Part shown: positions 49,933 through 57,913 of the stretch, piece by piece
Layout of the letters: every line of letters begins with the position of its first letter
Numbering within the stretch: the first letter of the stretch is position 1
Source: Bacteroidota bacterium
GTDB taxonomy: Bacteria; Bacteroidota; Bacteroidia; UBA8524
Direction: 5' to 3'
Length of the DNA: 64,000 nucleotides
Assembly (NCBI GenBank): GCA_008933805.1
Contig: WBUH01000005.1
Location: 62,001 to 126,000 of the forward strand
The notes under the pieces: generated by a model
Database searches by the model: none
Seen by the model: only the letters and a program-made list of their open reading frames with translations
Told to the model about the DNA's origin: nothing
Program-made: the position numbers and the translations under genes

Positions 49933-50976
49933 TTAAGTGGTTTTATAGATAGTTATTTCAGTGCTGCTCGGAGACACTATGGTTGAAATATTTGCTGCAA
50001 TTTCTTTTATACGGCCCAGTACGTACTCTCTTTTTGTTTTACCTGCGGGAATAGTTTCTGTAGCCAATATGGATGCCGCTATACTACTGACAAGGCCTGT
50101 GTATGCACTTGTGCTGCTTGTGGTGGCGGTAAAACTTCCGTCAATTGCGGCGGCTTGCAGGTTTGCATTGTAAAACAACAAATCAACACGCGGGTTAACT
50201 GTTTTACCTATATCTTCGGCCAACAGGGTGCCCACACTTATTACATTACTATTTAGGGCTGGATAATTTATCACACTGCCGAATACTTTATCCCTATCGC
50301 CCGCCGCGGCAACAATTACAATACCTGTGGCTGCCAACTTATTAATTTTAGCTTCGATGGTTTCGTTATTGGTATAATTCACCTCGCTGTATTGTCGTCG
50401 GCTAATATCAAGGCTAAGGTTAATTATATCGGGTTTCACCTGCGGTAATAGCTCAATTACTTTATCAAGGCCTTGGGCAAGATTTTGACCGGTAGAAATA
50501 TTATCGTCGGTTAACACCTTTATAGAAATAATATCTGCCGCAGGCACAGTGCCGGCCATTAATCCGGCCATTGCAGTACCATGTCCTTGCTTATCTGCAA
50601 TTGCAAGTGGGGGCACAGCGTATGCAAGGTTTTGGTATTTATTAAACACGGATTTTAAAAACGGATGTGTGGAGTTAATTCCGGTATCCAGCAATGCAAC
50701 GGTAATCCCTTTGCCTTTGCTGTCTTTCCATGCTTGCGGCATATTTACTATGCGGTTTGCATAGTTAGTAAGCGCATTATAGTTTGTTGCTCCGCTCCAA
50801 AAGAAGTTTCCATCGGTGCTTTTGAGCCATGTATCTACCCCTTCTATCAGTTGCCCTTGCAGCACCTCCACAACCTCTATTGAATCACCCGGAGACAGGT
50901 AGCCGCTTTTATTATCAGGCAGCGTTTGCGGAGTATTTAACCTGCGGTTGAGGTATGTGGTTACGGTTACTTTCAT
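49933..50976 (-). CDS. Subtilisin-like (S8) protein with atypical active site
   Basis: 347 residues. An N-terminal SH3-like part (DSIEVVEVLQGQLIEGVDTW) is followed by the S8 domain. Asp97 lies in VALLDTGINSTHP and His132 in KQGHGTAMAGLMAG, both clear. The Ser region is degenerate: TSSTSAYTGLVSS stands where GTSxAAP is expected, with Ser290 the likely nucleophile. The oxyanion Asn position reads AAAGDRD, with Asp instead of Asn. It has no signal peptide, so it is cytoplasmic unless exported by a partner. It may be a weak or specialised protease, or inactive. It lies 2 bp from both neighbours. Confidence 0.82.
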   Translation of the reverse strand: MKVTVTTYLNRRLNTPQTLPDNKSGYLSPGDSIEVVEVLQGQLIEGVDTWLKSTDGNFFWSGATNYNALTNYANRIVNMPQAWKDSKGKGITVALLDTGINSTHPFLKSVFNKYQNLAYAVPPLAIADKQGHGTAMAGLMAGTVPAADIISIKVLTDDNISTGQNLAQGLDKVIELLPQVKPDIINLSLDISRRQYSEVNYTNNETIEAKINKLAATGIVIVAAAGDRDKVFGSVINYPALNSNVISVGTLLAEDIGKTVNPRVDLLFYNANLQAAAIDGSFTATTSSTSAYTGLVSSIAASILATETIPAGKTKREYVLGRIKEIAANISTIVSPSSTEITIYKTT

Positions 50977-50978
50977 GG

Positions 50979-52310
50979 TTATGCTTTAGGGTTAACTGCT
51001 TCACCTGTTGCTGTGCTTTCTTTGTTTTTTGACGATTCGGCAGTTGATATTCCCGAACGCAAACGTATGAACTTATTTAATAAGTCAAACCAAAATGGTG
51101 CTCCTAATGATATGGCAAAGGCCGTAAGTACCCAGCCCAAAGCACGTTTCCACCAGCTTGCCTGACTCATTACCCCGAAAAACTTACTTATTGTGAACCG
51201 TTGACAGTACTTTACTTTATCATCAATTACGGCAATGTCTGATTTTAATAACATAGCTGAATCAAGCAGTTTTGTTTTTGCCGCTTTTTTACTGCTGTCA
51301 CTCGGCAACATACTGTCGGTATCTATTTTTTTAACCCGTACTTCTATCGAGTCAAGCAGCTTTTTCTTATCAGTCCTTACAACCATCGCTGAGTCGGCTT
51401 TTTTGCGACATTCGCCATAGCACCACATCCATTCGTCATCCCACCCGTTGCCTAATATTTTTTGTGAGGCTGCAATATCCTGTTTGGTTTGTTTAATCAC
51501 CTCACCTGATATGCTATCCCCTATCTCCTTGCCATCATAATTCTTCTGCACGGCAATGGCAAGCTCTACCATATTTTGTCGGGCTTCCCTATTGGTAGAT
51601 AAGAAACTTGCAATTTTAAGAGTGTCCACATTAAACGCTATGGCTATCAGCATACCAATGCCAAACAACCACACCTGTATGTTACGCTTGTACCAAACGG
51701 TGGTTTGTTTCATCATATCATCGTACCACGTTTGCAACGATTTTTTAAATTTATCAATATCGTTGTTGGCAGTAAGCAATAACCTTTTCAGGTAGTAGAC
51801 GGTGTCTTCTTCTATCAATACAATATTACCGCCGTTTACTTTAAACGTTGTGGTGATTGATACCCCATTGCCGGCCAAGGGTACGGGGCTTGATGAAAGT
51901 GTTTTTTCAATTACTGTTGCCGGGTTGGATGCAGGGGTATAATTCCCGCCTACTAAAATATCAGTTATTACTTCGGCGAATTTTTCGGAGGCAATGCTAT
52001 CGGGTAATCGGTGCCATTGGCCTTCGCCTAAGTATTTTATACCGGGGTGGGCATAAAATGCTTCGGCTAATGTACCGTCGTAGCTGCGGCTGTTAAAGGC
52101 GGCAATAGTAAAAGCACGATTCACCAATCCTTTGATTGACAGCTTGTTTACCTTTGTTTCATCGGTAAGCATCTGCACAATAGCCCTTTTAAGATTGCGG
52201 GCCCTGAAACCAAACCATGTAGAAAAACCTTCTTGCACAATGGTGGTTAGCAAGCTATACAACAAATACACCAGTATCAGCCCTACCGTAACATCAATTG
52301 CAATCAACAT
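50979..52310 (-). CDS. Membrane protein of the protease trio (443 aa)
   Basis: One N-terminal helix (VTVGLILVYLLYSLLTTIV), a central helix near residue 215-235 (QVWLFGIGMLIAIAFNVDTL) and a C-terminal helix (ALGWVLTAFAISLGAPFWF) flank two soluble domains. WYDDMMKQTTVWYKRNIQVW precedes the central helix, as in a family of conserved membrane proteins of unknown function that I have seen in several phyla. A coiled region of about 100 residues (CYGECRKKADSAMVV and following) lies between. It heads the operon of three, 90 bp after the DUF2063 gene, and so could share the RiPP cluster's transcript. Confidence 0.75.
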   Translation of the reverse strand: MLIAIDVTVGLILVYLLYSLLTTIVQEGFSTWFGFRARNLKRAIVQMLTDETKVNKLSIKGLVNRAFTIAAFNSRSYDGTLAEAFYAHPGIKYLGEGQWHRLPDSIASEKFAEVITDILVGGNYTPASNPATVIEKTLSSSPVPLAGNGVSITTTFKVNGGNIVLIEEDTVYYLKRLLLTANNDIDKFKKSLQTWYDDMMKQTTVWYKRNIQVWLFGIGMLIAIAFNVDTLKIASFLSTNREARQNMVELAIAVQKNYDGKEIGDSISGEVIKQTKQDIAASQKILGNGWDDEWMWCYGECRKKADSAMVVRTDKKKLLDSIEVRVKKIDTDSMLPSDSSKKAAKTKLLDSAMLLKSDIAVIDDKVKYCQRFTISKFFGVMSQASWWKRALGWVLTAFAISLGAPFWFDLLNKFIRLRSGISTAESSKNKESTATGEAVNPKA

Positions 52311-52400: not shown

Positions 52401-53258
52401 TTAAACAGTAACAAAAAACCCTGATTCTATCCATTTGCTGCGCCACACCGGCCAAAGAGTTTGCAAGCCTTCCCATTCAATATTGTTTTGTACGGCAAAC
52501 TGTTGCAAGGCTTGGGTTACAGGTTGCGGGTATTGCTGCAAATACGTTAGAAATTTATGTTGGAGGGGATTGAGGTGAAACAGCCCTATCTGATAGTCTT
52601 TGCGGGTTACAGCCAAATAACTGTCAGATGGGAAGGGCAATGACGGATTTTCGTTTTTGTGTACTGCTTGCAAATACTGGGCAGTAGGAAAACGGAAACT
52701 GAATAGGTACAACGACGGTATAAGTTTCAGACTCTCGTCGTTGGTGGTATCGGCAGCATAGTGTATGCCTTGCGGCGTTTCTTCGTCAAATATTTGCAGC
52801 AGGGCGTATTCCAATTGAGCCAATTCTATCATAAAATCAGGCCAATCTTCGCGCTCATTTTCGGGGGCATTTGCATCGGGGCGGGTTTGCTGCAAAAAGG
52901 CGGCAAAGCGTTTGCCCAAATCGGCAAGGGTATAACTTACAGAGGGGTATTGTTGCAGGTATTCATCGGCAAATGCCTGAAACAATTCCTCGCCCAAAGC
53001 GTACTGCAATCCTTTGAATTGGCCTGCCATGCAATCGCGCAAGCGGGCAAGGTAGCCGCGTTGGTAAATGGCCAATCGCTGCCTGCCGTTAAGGCGTGAT
53101 GAAGGGGCAATAATGTTTTCTATATCGCCTTGCAGGTGTTGGGGCAGCAATTCTGAAGGATGGCCGCCGGGGTTGCCCAACGGGTTCACCAATACAGTTT
53201 GCATCCATTGCTGTACAAGGCTAAGAGGGATATTTTTATCAGCTTCTTCTGCGGTCAT
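52401..53258 (-). CDS. DUF2063 (HvfC/BufC-like) RiPP partner protein
   Basis: A 285-residue protein. [20 protein letters not shown] is the diagnostic opening of DUF2063, and [20 protein letters not shown] with [14 protein letters not shown] complete the N-terminal domain. DUF2063 proteins accompany DUF692 enzymes and bind the precursor. Its start overlaps the MNIO stop by 4 bp (ATGA), so the pair is translated together. Confidence 0.9.
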
Positions 53259-54199
53259 TCAGTACTTACAATTTCGGGAACCATAAAGCTTAGGGGATTT
53301 GAAACCGTTTGAGGTTCAGCCGCCCCTGCTGCTGTTTTTATAAAGCCTTCAGGCAAGCCGTTCATAAATTGTTGGGCTTTCAATAATTCGGCGTGGTATT
53401 CATCAAACGGCGGAATGTTACTATCCCACTCCAGCAACAACGATGTGCCGCCCGTACGTTGCCACGCAAGGCTAAACAACTCCCACACGCCGGGTATTAC
53501 CTGCCTGTCGTGGGTATCAATAATGTGTGTACCACAGTATTGATGGCCTGCTAAGTGCATTTGCACAATACGGTCGTGGGGCAGGTTTTCAATGTATTCA
53601 ACCGCGTCCATATCATTGTTATAGCAGGTAACGTAAACATTGTTCACATCCAGCAGCAACCCGCAACCGGTTTCATCGGTAAGGGCAGTAAGAAACTCCC
53701 ACTCTGGTATGCTTGAGTGCTTAAACGCCAAATAGGTACTGGGATTTTCAAGCACTAACGGACGCTCAAGGTAGTCTTGAACTATTTTTATACGGTCGGA
53801 TATGTGTTTTAAACTTTCAAAAGTAAGGGGCACGGGCAACAGGTCGTGGGTATTTACTCCCAGCACTCCCGTCCAGCAAAGGTGGTCGCTAATCCAAGCG
53901 GGATTCACCTCGGCTGCCAGCTTTTTCAATTTCCCCAAATAGTCAAAATCAACAGGGTCGGTGCTACCAATGGATAACGAAACCCCGTGCATGGCAATGG
54001 GATACCGCTCTGCCACCTGTCGTAAAATATGACGCGGGCGGCCGCCTGTATCCATAAAATTTTCTGAAATAATCTCAAACCAATCAACGGCGGGCCAATG
54101 CTCGGTAATGTGGTTAAAGTGTACGTTACGCAAACCTAAGCCTAACCCAATATTGGGCAGCCGGCTCAGCATTTGTGCATACTCTTGGGTTGTTTTCAT
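53255..54199 (-). CDS. DUF692 multinuclear iron oxidative enzyme (MNIO)
   Basis: A 314-residue TIM-barrel enzyme. [14 protein letters not shown] opens the family. Putative metal ligands lie in [11 protein letters not shown] (Glu), [11 protein letters not shown] (His), [10 protein letters not shown] (Asp, His), LVLENPSTY (Glu), [10 protein letters not shown] (Asp), [11 protein letters not shown] (His), IDTHDRQV (Asp, His) and [10 protein letters not shown] (Glu). MNIOs use two or three irons and O2 to alter Cys side chains in ribosomal peptides (methanobactin, 3-thiaGlu, bufferins). A Cys-rich gene lies directly upstream and DUF2063 downstream, which makes this a RiPP enzyme with high probability. 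Confidence 0.93.
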
Positions 54200-54247
54200 G
54201 GCAATTAAACACTCTTTGGCTTTAGCAACTACTACTCTTCCTTATTT

Positions 54248-54288
54248 AAAAAATAGTAAACAGGGCGGCTATTACTGCCCTGTTTACT
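54248..54288 (-). terminator. Internal terminator between precursor and MNIO
   Basis: AGTAAACAGGGC (54255-54266) pairs perfectly with GCCCTGTTTACT (54277-54288) around a 10-base loop. On the minus strand the stem is followed by ATTTTTTAAATAAG. It lies in the 158-bp gap after the precursor gene and ahead of the enzyme genes, so part of the transcripts should stop here, giving more precursor than enzyme. Confidence 0.85.
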
Positions 54289-54357
54289 GCCCTTTCGGGT
54301 GATTGATTTTTCTTACAACTTATTCCACTTGCAAAGCAATGCATCGATTTGATATCG

Positions 54358-54993
54358 TTATATATTGGGATTAGTCTTGCACACATTGGCATCAGTGCTT
54401 GGGCTTTCTGCCTTGCTACCGCAAAGCACGCTGCACTTGCTTTCTTTTAAACCAAAGGTACAATTCATATCCCCGCTACTACCGCAAGCATCGTAAGGGC
54501 CAAGGCTTTTCAGCCACCACGATGGAGGGCCGTCAGGGAAACGGGGAGTTCCAAACTCGCGACCTTCGCTGGTAAGACGTTCTTCAAACAGTTTGCGGGC
54601 AAGTTTCCAAACACTCTGTCCGGTATTTGTACCCTGTGTACTGATGCGCTCGGCTTGTATGGGGGTAGCACAACTTCCTTTCCATGCACAATCGTTTGAG
54701 CCGGGTTTCTCTTGTTCTTCGGCACTGCCGTATAATCCGCAACCGCCTTGTCCCCTGCAATTGTTAAGGGTGTGGCACACGTGCGTAGTGGTTGAGCAAA
54801 AGCCTGTACCTGCACAACTGTTGGTGCCAAAACGATCGTGGCCTTGGCAGGCGTTTAAGCCCATGCAAGCATGCAGCTCTAACGGAACAAAGGTGGTGGT
54901 GCTTGATGTTGTTGACGGTGTTGTTGACGAACTGCCGCAGCCATTACTTCCACTGCTGCCGCAACCGTTGCTATAATATATCCTGTTAATCAT
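54358..54993 (-). CDS. Cys-rich candidate RiPP precursor (bufferin-like)
   Basis: 211 residues with 16 Cys and no signal peptide. An N-terminal NGCGSSGSNGCGSSS stretch and Ser/Thr linker are followed by the core region at about 40-86. In it Cys occur as HACMGLNACQG, NSCAGTGFCST and HVCHTLNNCRGQGGCG, the GxNxC/CxGxGGC pattern that I know from MNIO-linked precursors of the BufA2 type. NDCAWKGSC and a helical part with WKLARKLFEERL follow. A C-terminal Cys group (YDACGSSGDMNC, KCSVLCGSK) ends it. It is the second gene of the cluster, between the ferritin-like and MNIO genes. It is much longer than usual bufferins. The precursor role is inferred. Confidence 0.8.
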   Translation of the reverse strand: MINRIYYSNGCGSSGSNGCGSSSTTPSTTSSTTTFVPLELHACMGLNACQGHDRFGTNSCAGTGFCSTTTHVCHTLNNCRGQGGCGLYGSAEEQEKPGSNDCAWKGSCATPIQAERISTQGTNTGQSVWKLARKLFEERLTSEGREFGTPRFPDGPPSWWLKSLGPYDACGSSGDMNCTFGLKESKCSVLCGSKAESPSTDANVCKTNPNI

Positions 54994-55026
54994 GGGTGTA
55001 TATTTATTTTATGCGTTGATAATGGA

Positions 55027-56322
55027 TTAAAAACTAACGGGTTCACCTGCAATACTGCTCATATCAGGCAAGGTAGCAAAACGGCCGGGCAGGCTGCTTG
55101 GCGGATTTAGGCTTGAGGGTATAGCATTGTAAAGGGCTATAATCTGCGATTTTGCGGTAGATTCAGGCGAAAATTCGTAATTCTCAAAAGTGGGAGCGGC
55201 ATAGTTACCATCAGGCAAGCTAAGGCTGGTAATAAAATCGCAGAGGGTGCTTAGCATAAACACCATGCCCTTGTGAATACCAAAGTTAAATATCTCGCTT
55301 TGTTGGGGCATAGGGTTGCGGTAGCACGATTCCATCATCATATACATGTAGGTATATACTGCATTCAGCAGGTTTGATACGGTTTGTATATCAGCGGGGT
55401 AACCGGCTGTTTTAGGATTCACGGGGAATGGTTTTACGAAGTATTTTACATCATCGGCAAAGTTTGGAAACTCAGCATGCAAATCAACAAACTTGCGGTA
55501 GTGCGATTCTTCGTCGTGCATTTTATCGTCCGTAGTGTGGTCGTCGGCAATGGTACCTTCACCTTGGTGCACAATAGTTTCAATGGCTTTGCGTGCAGCA
55601 GCGTTGCTGTCTATTATCACCAAATCACCGCTGTCATCAGCATTGGTAAACTGTGGTTTGTGGTATTTGTTGTAGTACAGCGTATCTACGTTGTTGTGGG
55701 TATAGTATCCGTTACCGGGACCTAATTGTGGTTGGCCTGCGTATTTTTCGTAATCCTCGGGCTTAATGTTTGCCTCAATGTAATCCAAAATGCTTTGGTA
55801 AAACTGTCCGATAGACACCCAATGGTCAGGAATTTCGTTGCTATTCGGTACACCGCCGGGGCTTTCAATTTGTATAAATTGCTCTAATTGCTCGGCTGAA
55901 AACGGTGCTAAACTGATGCTAAGTTCAGGAAAACGACCGGGCAGGTTAGTAGGCCAGTTGGTAGGTGAAATACCCACTAAATCAGGCATGCCGATAAGGG
56001 CGCGGTGCAGGTTGGATGCCAAGGCCATGTGCAGCATTTCTTCAATCACTACACTCATAATAGTAGCACCTGCTTTGTTGGCATACACCATTACATCTGC
56101 CGATTTTTCAAGTGCTGTTTTAGCAGCAATGGCAGCAGGCAAGCCTTCATCGATATACTTATTGGTATAATCGGCCTGAATTTGGTCTTGGTTAGGGGTG
56201 CGGATAATTGAATAGTAGGTGTACAGGTAAATGGGGATGGTCGACATCTCAATGTCGATGGCTTCTTGCAATGCATGGGCAAGCGACTGTTGGTCCTTTG
56301 CCAGGGTTAAAAATCTTTTCAT
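55027..56322 (-). CDS. Ferritin-like domain protein (PF12902/VioB-like)
   Basis: A 431-residue protein. Helix 1 has QEAIDIEMSTIPIYLYTYYS (Glu), helix 2 VVIEEMLHMALASN (ExxH) and a later helix HDEESHYRKFVDLH (ExxH), the ligand set of a ferritin-like diiron centre. LIGMPDLVGISPTNWP and LPGRFPELSISLAPFSAEQL resemble the iminophenyl-pyruvate dimer synthase (VioB, RebD) part. It heads the cluster, 33 bp before the precursor gene, and may act on the peptide or protect the iron enzyme. It has no membrane segment. Confidence 0.85.
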   Translation of the reverse strand: MKRFLTLAKDQQSLAHALQEAIDIEMSTIPIYLYTYYSIIRTPNQDQIQADYTNKYIDEGLPAAIAAKTALEKSADVMVYANKAGATIMSVVIEEMLHMALASNLHRALIGMPDLVGISPTNWPTNLPGRFPELSISLAPFSAEQLEQFIQIESPGGVPNSNEIPDHWVSIGQFYQSILDYIEANIKPEDYEKYAGQPQLGPGNGYYTHNNVDTLYYNKYHKPQFTNADDSGDLVIIDSNAAARKAIETIVHQGEGTIADDHTTDDKMHDEESHYRKFVDLHAEFPNFADDVKYFVKPFPVNPKTAGYPADIQTVSNLLNAVYTYMYMMMESCYRNPMPQQSEIFNFGIHKGMVFMLSTLCDFITSLSLPDGNYAAPTFENYEFSPESTAKSQIIALYNAIPSSLNPPSSLPGRFATLPDMSSIAGEPVSF

Positions 56323-56538: not shown

Positions 56539-56550
56539 ATATTGCAATAT
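56539..56550. promoter_or_regulatory. Candidate ArsR operator
   Basis: ATATTGCAATAT is a perfect 12-bp palindrome 13 bp before the arsR ATG, in the position of a self-repressing ArsR site. Confidence 0.55.
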
Positions 56551-56562
56551 AGTAGTAAAGCG

Positions 56563-56892
56563 ATGGGAGCCACTAAAACAGATTATTTTACCGAACGACA
56601 AAACCAACTGGCCGCACTGGCAAAGGCTTTGGCGCATCCGGCACGTATTGCCATTTTGGATTATTTGTTAAAAGTGAATGCTTGCGTTTGCGGTGATATT
56701 GTAAATGAATTGCCCCTTGCCCAACCCACCGTTTCGCAACACCTGAAAGAACTTAAAACTGCCGGCCTGATAAAAGGCAGTATTGAGGGCAACAGTATTT
56801 GCTATTGCATCAACGAGAATGCACTTGGGCAATTACAAGAGTTTTTTAATGTGATTACTGCCCACGAGGACACAAAAAATAAATGCTGCTAA
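56563..56892 (+). CDS. arsR: ArsR-type transcriptional repressor
   Basis: 109 residues from the ATG at 56563 (MGATKTDYF). A longer frame begins at a TTG at 56542, which would run through the operator and is rejected. The winged helix contains [20 protein letters not shown] with the metal-sensing Cys pair CVC, and [21 protein letters not shown] ends the protein. It represses its own operon until arsenite or antimonite binds the Cys. Confidence 0.9.
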
Positions 56893-56905
56893 AAACAACA
56901 ACTAT

Positions 56906-57364
56906 ATGAAATTATCGGATGTTAAAAACCACCTTGGGGCAATGGACAGTTTAACCTTTGTGCTTGAAAACGGTGAACAAGTACCTGCCCACTTCCACAT
57001 TACCGAGGTAGGTTTGGTTACTAAACGCTTTATTGATTGCGGAAATACTGTACGCAATGAAACCGTTGTAAGTATGCAACTTTGGGATGCAAATGATTAC
57101 GACCACCGTCTTGCCCCTGAAAAACTGCTGAAAATTATTGCTACATCTGAAAAGGTATTGGGCATTGAAGACCACGAGGTAGAGATTGAATACCAAGGAG
57201 GCACCATTGGTAAATACGGACTTAATTTTAACGGCAACCAGTTTGTGCTTACCAACAAACACACGGCTTGTCTTGCCGATGACCAATGCGGTGTGCCTGT
57301 GGTGAAAAAGAAAATTGCCCTGAGTGAATTGCAATGCTGCCAACCGGGAGGAGGCTGTTGCTAA
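56906..57364 (+). CDS. DUF6428-like protein of the ars operon
   Basis: A 152-residue protein with a beta-rich start (LTFVLENGEQVPAHFHITEV) and a Cys-rich end (LQCCQPGGGCC). It is typical of small proteins between arsR and arsenate reductase in Bacteroidota. The tail Cys may bind arsenite or a metal; that is inference. It starts 13 bp after arsR, and its stop overlaps the start of the next peptide (TAATG). Confidence 0.8.
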   Translation: MKLSDVKNHLGAMDSLTFVLENGEQVPAHFHITEVGLVTKRFIDCGNTVRNETVVSMQLWDANDYDHRLAPEKLLKIIATSEKVLGIEDHEVEIEYQGGTIGKYGLNFNGNQFVLTNKHTACLADDQCGVPVVKKKIALSELQCCQPGGGCC

Positions 57365-57489
57365 TGAAGGAGTTCTTTAAAAAATATAAGAAGCCGATAC
57401 TAATCACCAGCACCATCATTATTTTAAATGTGGTATACGGGTTTGATGCAAGGTTTACGGTTATAAATATTGTTTGGCTTTTTGTTTAA
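57364..57489 (+). CDS. 41-residue membrane peptide in the ars operon
   Basis: A small frame read from the ATG that overlaps the DUF6428 stop by one base, ending at a TAA 7 bp before the arsenate reductase ATG. The N-terminus is MKEFFKKYKKPILITSTIII, basic then hydrophobic. FTVINIVWLFV follows after YGFDAR. This is a one- or two-helix inner-membrane peptide. It fills the gap exactly, so it is probably translated. Confidence 0.6.
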   Translation: MKEFFKKYKKPILITSTIIILNVVYGFDARFTVINIVWLFV

Positions 57490-57496
57490 ATAAGTA

Positions 57497-57913
57497 ATGA
57501 AAAAGGTATTGGTATTATGTACCGGCAACAGTTGCCGAAGTCAATTGGCAGAAGGGTATTTGAGGCATTTTGCAGGCAGCAACGCCGAAATATACAGCGC
57601 GGGTATTGAAACGCACGGGGTGAACCCAAGGGCAATAGCTACTATGCTTGAAGATGGTATTGATATCTCAGGTCATACATCAAACAACATTGACGAATAC
57701 AGGGATATTGATTTTGACTATGTGATTACGGTTTGCGACCATGCCCAAGAAAACTGCCCGTATTTTCCAAGCAAGGCACAACGGTTTCACCACAACTTCC
57801 CCGACCCTGCAAAGGCAAAGGGCAGCGAGGAAGAAATTACCGAACAGTTTAGGCAGGTGCGCCAACAAGTAAAAGAATACATGCAGCAATTTGCGGCTAA
57901 GTATTTGGCATAA
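57497..57913 (+). CDS. arsC: Arsenate reductase (low-molecular-weight phosphatase fold)
   Basis: 138 residues. VLVLCTGNSCRSQLAEGYLR is the CX5R active-site loop (Cys-x5-Arg). DYVITVCDHAQENCPYFPSK carries the Cys used in arsenate release in thioredoxin-coupled reductases and the Asp loop. It is the last gene of the operon. No Acr3 or ArsB pump is present in the window after it. Confidence 0.93.
   Translation: MKKVLVLCTGNSCRSQLAEGYLRHFAGSNAEIYSAGIETHGVNPRAIATMLEDGIDISGHTSNNIDEYRDIDFDYVITVCDHAQENCPYFPSKAQRFHHNFPDPAKAKGSEEEITEQFRQVRQQVKEYMQQFAAKYLA

Follow-up and report, generated by a model that had tools for sequence, protein, structure and literature searches.

An obligate ferritin-like gene in a bacterial module encoding a cysteine-rich protein, a BufB-type MNIO and a DUF2063 partner

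The known products of MNIO (DUF692) enzymes are mostly exported peptides, many of which bind copper. In the stretch of Bacteroidota DNA analyzed here (64,000 nucleotides; hereafter the window), an MNIO gene and the gene of its DUF2063 partner lie beside genes for a Cys-rich protein and for a ferritin-like protein. This locus raises the question of whether the ferritin-like protein is a true member of the system and, if so, what an MNIO and a diiron protein could do together. The contrast with the known products is that here the likely substrate is an intracellular, conserved protein, tied to the diiron protein by linkage and by repeated fusion.

The gene module of the window

Four co-directional ORFs occupy positions 52401-56322 of the window, all on the reverse strand, in the order ferritin-like, Cys-rich, MNIO and DUF2063. 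The first (55027-56322) codes for a 431-aa ferritin-like diiron protein of the PF12902, 3hl1 type (137 bits against a Pfam cut-off of 22.3). The second (54358-54993) codes for a 211-aa protein with 16 Cys and no Pfam family, which is the presumed substrate of the MNIO. The third (53255-54199) codes for a 314-aa MNIO of the bufferin-maturase (BufB) type (PF05114, 351.8 bits, cut-off 25), and the fourth (52401-53258) for a 285-aa DUF2063 partner (PF09836, 62.9 bits, cut-off 27.2, with a weak NGO1945_C match). The spacing between the genes is 33 bp, 158 bp and then a 4-bp overlap (53255-53258) of the MNIO stop with the DUF2063 start. A preliminary description of this DNA had listed the four genes with their order, strand and coordinates, all of which the ORF check and Pfam bore out; its 16 Cys in 211 residues agree with an exact count, and the 4-bp overlap that it reported is present.

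Between the Cys-rich and MNIO genes (54255-54288, reverse strand), RNA folding predicts a terminator- or attenuator-like element, a 12-bp hairpin with a T tract after it (-25.4 kcal/mol, z -5.2). The element is single copy in the source genome, and a general attenuator device was rejected, since a similar element was found in only 2 of 79 loci, the window included. Directly upstream of the module, a divergent group (56542-57913, forward strand) codes for an ArsR-type regulator, a DUF6428 protein and an arsenate-reductase-like phosphatase; neither the ArsR/ArsC neighbors nor the genes directly downstream recur in the flanks of related loci. On the other side, a subtilase-like gene (49933-50976, reverse strand) matches mycosin and, more weakly, QhpE, the subtilisin-like protease found in systems for quinohaemoprotein amine dehydrogenase. 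It adjoins a gene for an unknown 443-aa protein (50979-52310).

Linkage and fusion across genomes

When the Cys-rich protein was searched against 395 Bacteroidia genomes, six relatives were obtained, all of them in the same gene setting. An alignment of Cys-rich relatives was then scanned against ∼85,000 species genomes, which gave 198 relatives, and the best 80 of these were fetched. These 80 loci were selected solely by their Cys-rich protein; in each of them, the ferritin-like, Cys-rich and MNIO genes were adjacent. DUF2063 was present in 78, and the remaining two (L051 and L067) are on contigs that end inside the MNIO gene. Adding the window, the first six relatives and three more loci, and removing duplicates, brought the total to 87 distinct loci. 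The first three genes were found together in 87/87, a count that is unbiased for 84 loci only, because the three further ones were picked by PF12902/MNIO proximity. The preliminary description had named, as an outcome that would refute it, genomes in which the four genes never occur together; the result was the opposite, with all four in 85 of the 87 loci.

The linkage was also approached from the other genes. Family searches of the 395 Bacteroidia genomes gave 18 PF12902 and 41 MNIO matches, and 10 of the 18 PF12902 genes were within ∼2.5 kb of an MNIO gene. The MNIOs concerned are the ten best-scoring of the 41. The suggestion made earlier, to look in such genomes for DUF692 loci with an adjacent PF12902 gene, yielded ten loci. 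A chance neighborhood is rejected by the adjacency in 80/80 loci and by the PF12902-MNIO proximity in 10/18.

The module is present in four phyla: Bacteroidota, Pseudomonadota (alpha-, beta- and gamma-Proteobacteria), Acidobacteriota and Actinomycetota. The usual gene order is that of the window, and in every unfused locus the ferritin-like gene is directly upstream of the Cys-rich gene, except in two Actinomycetota (L070 and L084), where it comes last, after DUF2063. The ferritin-like proteins of these two loci are distant from the others, which, with the gene order, hints at a separate recruitment. The tree did not establish that the MNIO-linked ferritin-like proteins arose only once: a few long unlinked branches are intermixed in it, and the AU test, at p 0.034, was accompanied by warnings of long-branch attraction. 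Culturable species of Flavobacterium, Hymenobacter, Spirosoma, Mucilaginibacter and Streptomyces carry the module, so that it is directly testable.

A single chain combines the ferritin-like and Cys-rich parts in six loci (L013, L014, L091, L095, L096 and L097), which belong to three lineages. The fused chains are 492-751 aa long, are followed by MNIO and DUF2063, and all six match PF12902. On the MNIO tree, the fused and split states need three changes. The predicted structure of the fused protein is too poor to show docking (pLDDT 62.9). We conclude that the ferritin-like gene is an obligate, defining member of the module and not an occasional extra. The preliminary description had taken it for an addition to the standard bufferin operon; the addition is real and specific, but a gene that is obligate and fused in three lineages is not a mere extra.

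The fusions also bear on what the ferritin-like protein does. Its only role might be to supply iron to the MNIO or to shield it from oxidants, given that MNIOs need a multi-iron cofactor and that the linkage is obligate. We consider this highly improbable, because the other 31 of the 41 Bacteroidia MNIO matches have no adjacent PF12902 gene, and because the fusion partner in the six loci is always the Cys-rich substrate and never the MNIO. Rather, the fusion suggests that the modified Cys serve an enzyme, and not a secreted peptide. Equally, it could reflect a ferritin-like part that modifies the Cys part in cis. A tailoring role next to that of the MNIO, in which the ferritin-like protein oxidizes the Cys-rich protein either ahead of the MNIO or after it (in cis in the fusions), would account for the obligate linkage and the fusion as well as for the complete diiron site described below, and the borosins offer a precedent for a precursor joined to the enzyme that modifies it. 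We nevertheless regard it as rather unlikely: it leaves the variable small-molecule oxidases beside the module without a role, and the other PF12902 genes adjoin amino-acid or alcohol oxidases and not peptide modifiers, the LodA/flavoprotein case excepted.

Properties of the proteins and their proposed role

The Cys-rich protein has a core of nine Cys (43, 49, 60, 66, 73, 79, 85, 102 and 108 in window numbering), present in 91-100% of 87 sequences and mostly spaced as C-x5-C; C170 and C178 are found in 94% and 91% of them. The unfused members have 10-22 Cys. Outside the Cys core there is a conserved W129..AR..FE tail (W129, A132, R133 and F136), which fits a folded subunit. Hydropathy analysis revealed, in the window protein and in the family, no N-terminal hydrophobic stretch like that of exported precursors: the family median of the N-terminal maximum is 0.93, compared with 1.65-2.15 in three control precursors, and the few high values apparently stem from uncertain start codons. 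The sole NCBIfam model matched by the window protein is BufA2, and weakly so (residues 55-83, 20.7 bits, cut-off 60); BufA2 matches at E up to 0.01 were obtained with 12 of 18 representatives (best 3.7e-7). DUF2282 gave no match with the window protein, and no solved structure is credibly related to it. A phage or plasmid origin was rejected, as no confirmed relative was found in viral contigs or plasmids. The analysis supports the earlier proposal that this protein is the substrate expected for the MNIO and DUF2063, by which its Cys would be modified. The term RiPP cluster, used in the preliminary description, may fit the chemistry but not the product: the protein lacks a Sec signal, and its size and its conservation beyond the Cys exceed those expected of a typical exported RiPP.

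The window MNIO scored 350.7 bits with NCBIfam MNIO_BufB (cut-off 310). The BufB type was above its cut-off in 9/9 linked MNIOs tested, and two control Bacteroidia MNIOs were of the HvfB type. Residues H71, H106, E151, D184, H215, D228, H230 and E257, which we take from family knowledge to be the metal ligands, are invariant among the 84 linked MNIOs and the 7 others compared. H27, D105, C108, H118 and D231 are common to the linked MNIOs and absent from the seven aligned controls. In a tree of the linked MNIOs and nine other Bacteroidia MNIOs (bufferin MNIOs of Proteobacteria excluded), the linked ones are set apart from the nine. The PF09836 (DUF2063) signature was found in 16/16 sampled partners of the family, that of the window among them.

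An AlphaFold2 model of the ferritin-like protein (58 sequences) reached a pLDDT of 91. Among solved structures, the closest is 3hl1, a ferritin-like protein of Caulobacter (VIA Z 26.0, 2.7 Å over 262 residues), and bacterioferritins scored well below it (Z ∼11). An iron-storage ferritin cage is hence unlikely. Of 53 MNIO-linked sequences, 52-53 retain each of the six candidate diiron ligands (E25, E95xxH98, E255 and E271xxH274).

Beyond the core module, no gene is universal in the flanks of the relatives. A FAD amine-oxidase-type gene was found in nineteen loci and a TPP decarboxylase in twenty, in at least three arrangements; these loci are mostly Flavobacterium and mutually close relatives, so the number of independent cases is small. 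For one amine-oxidase subgroup (that of L071), the assignment relies on sequence similarity and the FAD motif, not on Pfam. A Trp halogenase occurs in one locus (L094) and a BBE-type FAD oxidase in another (L016). Such accessory oxidases are absent beside the module of the window and in most loci. PF12902 genes without an MNIO adjoin a GMC oxidoreductase gene in L099, and genes for LodA and a flavoprotein in L104. The presence of PF12902 beside oxidases and redox enzymes favors an oxidative enzyme role over storage. In L104 (5476-9696), the PF12902 gene is followed by LodA, of the L-lysine epsilon oxidase family, and then by the flavoprotein; the LodA family is known for its protein-derived Cys cofactor. 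A separate family, represented by L065:3030-4418, adjoins the module in 18 loci; its L050 member has a weak match to a THAP4-like haem-binding barrel, and the other tested members have no Pfam family.

These data can be set against a cytosolic metal buffer, in which a bufferin-like Cys protein would bind copper and the ferritin-like partner would oxidize or store iron or copper. The BufB type of the MNIO and the weak but repeated BufA2 similarity agree with it. The ferritin-like protein, however, is of the insert-bearing 3hl1 type and not a cage subunit of normal size, and such a role has no place for the amine oxidase and TPP enzymes. DoxX (BufD) is frequent, although not universal, in bufferin-type operons; none is present at the window locus, the four DoxX matches of the genome being on other contigs, and neither metal-transport nor sigma-factor genes recur widely in the flanks of the relatives. 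We judge a metal buffer to be unlikely, slightly more so than tailoring by the ferritin-like protein.

Tentatively, and with a little less than even confidence, we favor over the three alternatives a cytosolic Cys-rich subunit, matured by the MNIO, that acts together with a partner resembling a diiron oxidase. The linkage in 87/87 loci, the fusions, the BufB type, the six conserved ligands, the lack of an export signal, the conserved tail and the oxidase neighbors argue for such a subunit. Against it count the lack of accessory oxidases beside the window module and most others, and the poor conservation of the hairpin. The module would then be a two-part cytosolic metalloprotein together with its maturases. 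Guided by DUF2063, the MNIO would turn Cys of the Cys-rich protein into oxidized, probably thiooxazole-type groups, as BufB does, and the whole modified protein would stay in the cytosol and dock on the ferritin-like protein. The diiron site may activate O2, and the complex could act as an oxidase or oxygenase with the modified Cys protein as its metal-binding or redox subunit. Substrates would differ between bacteria, being fed via accessory enzymes such as the FAD amine oxidase with the TPP decarboxylase, or the halogenase. It is possible, with still less certainty than the subunit itself, that the MNIO builds a protein-derived, Cys-based cofactor subunit, i.e., a permanent electron-transfer or metal-binding partner or domain of the ferritin-like oxidase and not a metallophore. 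If the modified Cys do act in an enzyme, about a quarter of the sampled Bacteroidia MNIO genes (10/41) would belong to such systems.

Comparison with known systems

As described in the main text of the MNIO survey, bufferins carry Sec signals and go with DUF2063 partners, in an operon BufA-BufB-BufC-BufD (PMC12452194). The module resembles the bufferin operons (Buf1/Buf2) outlined there in its BufB-type MNIO, its DUF2063 partner and a precursor gene directly upstream, and its Cys-rich protein resembles bufferins in the C-x5-C motifs and the weak BufA2 match (PMC12452194). In contrast to the bufferins of that text, the Cys-rich protein is without a Sec signal, larger, conserved and far under the BufA2 cut-off (PMC12452194). 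Unlike bufferin operons, the module has an obligate ferritin-like gene and fusions. An ordinary bufferin operon is rejected by the precursor score, the missing signal peptide and the missing DoxX; the window module is not a standard bufferin operon.

According to the same main text, signal-less MNIO precursors go with PME-type 2 partners (PMC12452194). The present family departs from this rule, being signal-less and yet having the DUF2063 signature in each of its 16 sampled partners. The adjamnio-I group comprises signal-less putative precursors of 122-293 aa with 8-21 Cys, encoded before the MNIO (PMC12452194, Table 2), and the window protein is like them in its lack of a signal, its size, its Cys content and its place before the MNIO. 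The partners differ, PME-type 2 in adjamnio-I and DUF2063 here, in a comparison made with the published description of adjamnio-I only (PMC12452194). The Cys-rich precursor family and adjamnio-I may overlap. The main text of the survey does not mention ferritin (PMC12452194). Among openly searchable papers, no description of a link between ferritin-like or PF12902 proteins and MNIOs was found; DUF692 and "ferritin-like" co-occur in one paper, the latter term only in its references.

The module shares the PF12902 domain with VioA/VioB and other PF12902 oxidase modules, and in several clades also a nearby FAD amine oxidase. VioB differs in that it is a single long protein with neither an MNIO nor a Cys-rich protein as partner, and an identity of the ferritin-like protein with VioB (iminophenyl-pyruvate dimer synthase, TIGR04492) was rejected at 34.6 bits against a cut-off of 1250. 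In quinohaemoprotein amine dehydrogenase and LodA, which have protein-derived Cys cofactors, the modifying enzymes and folds are different from those of the module. By analogy only, the principle would be the same if the modified Cys part serves an oxidase. MNIO chemistry would count as a route to enzyme cofactors should the modified Cys turn out to serve an enzyme.
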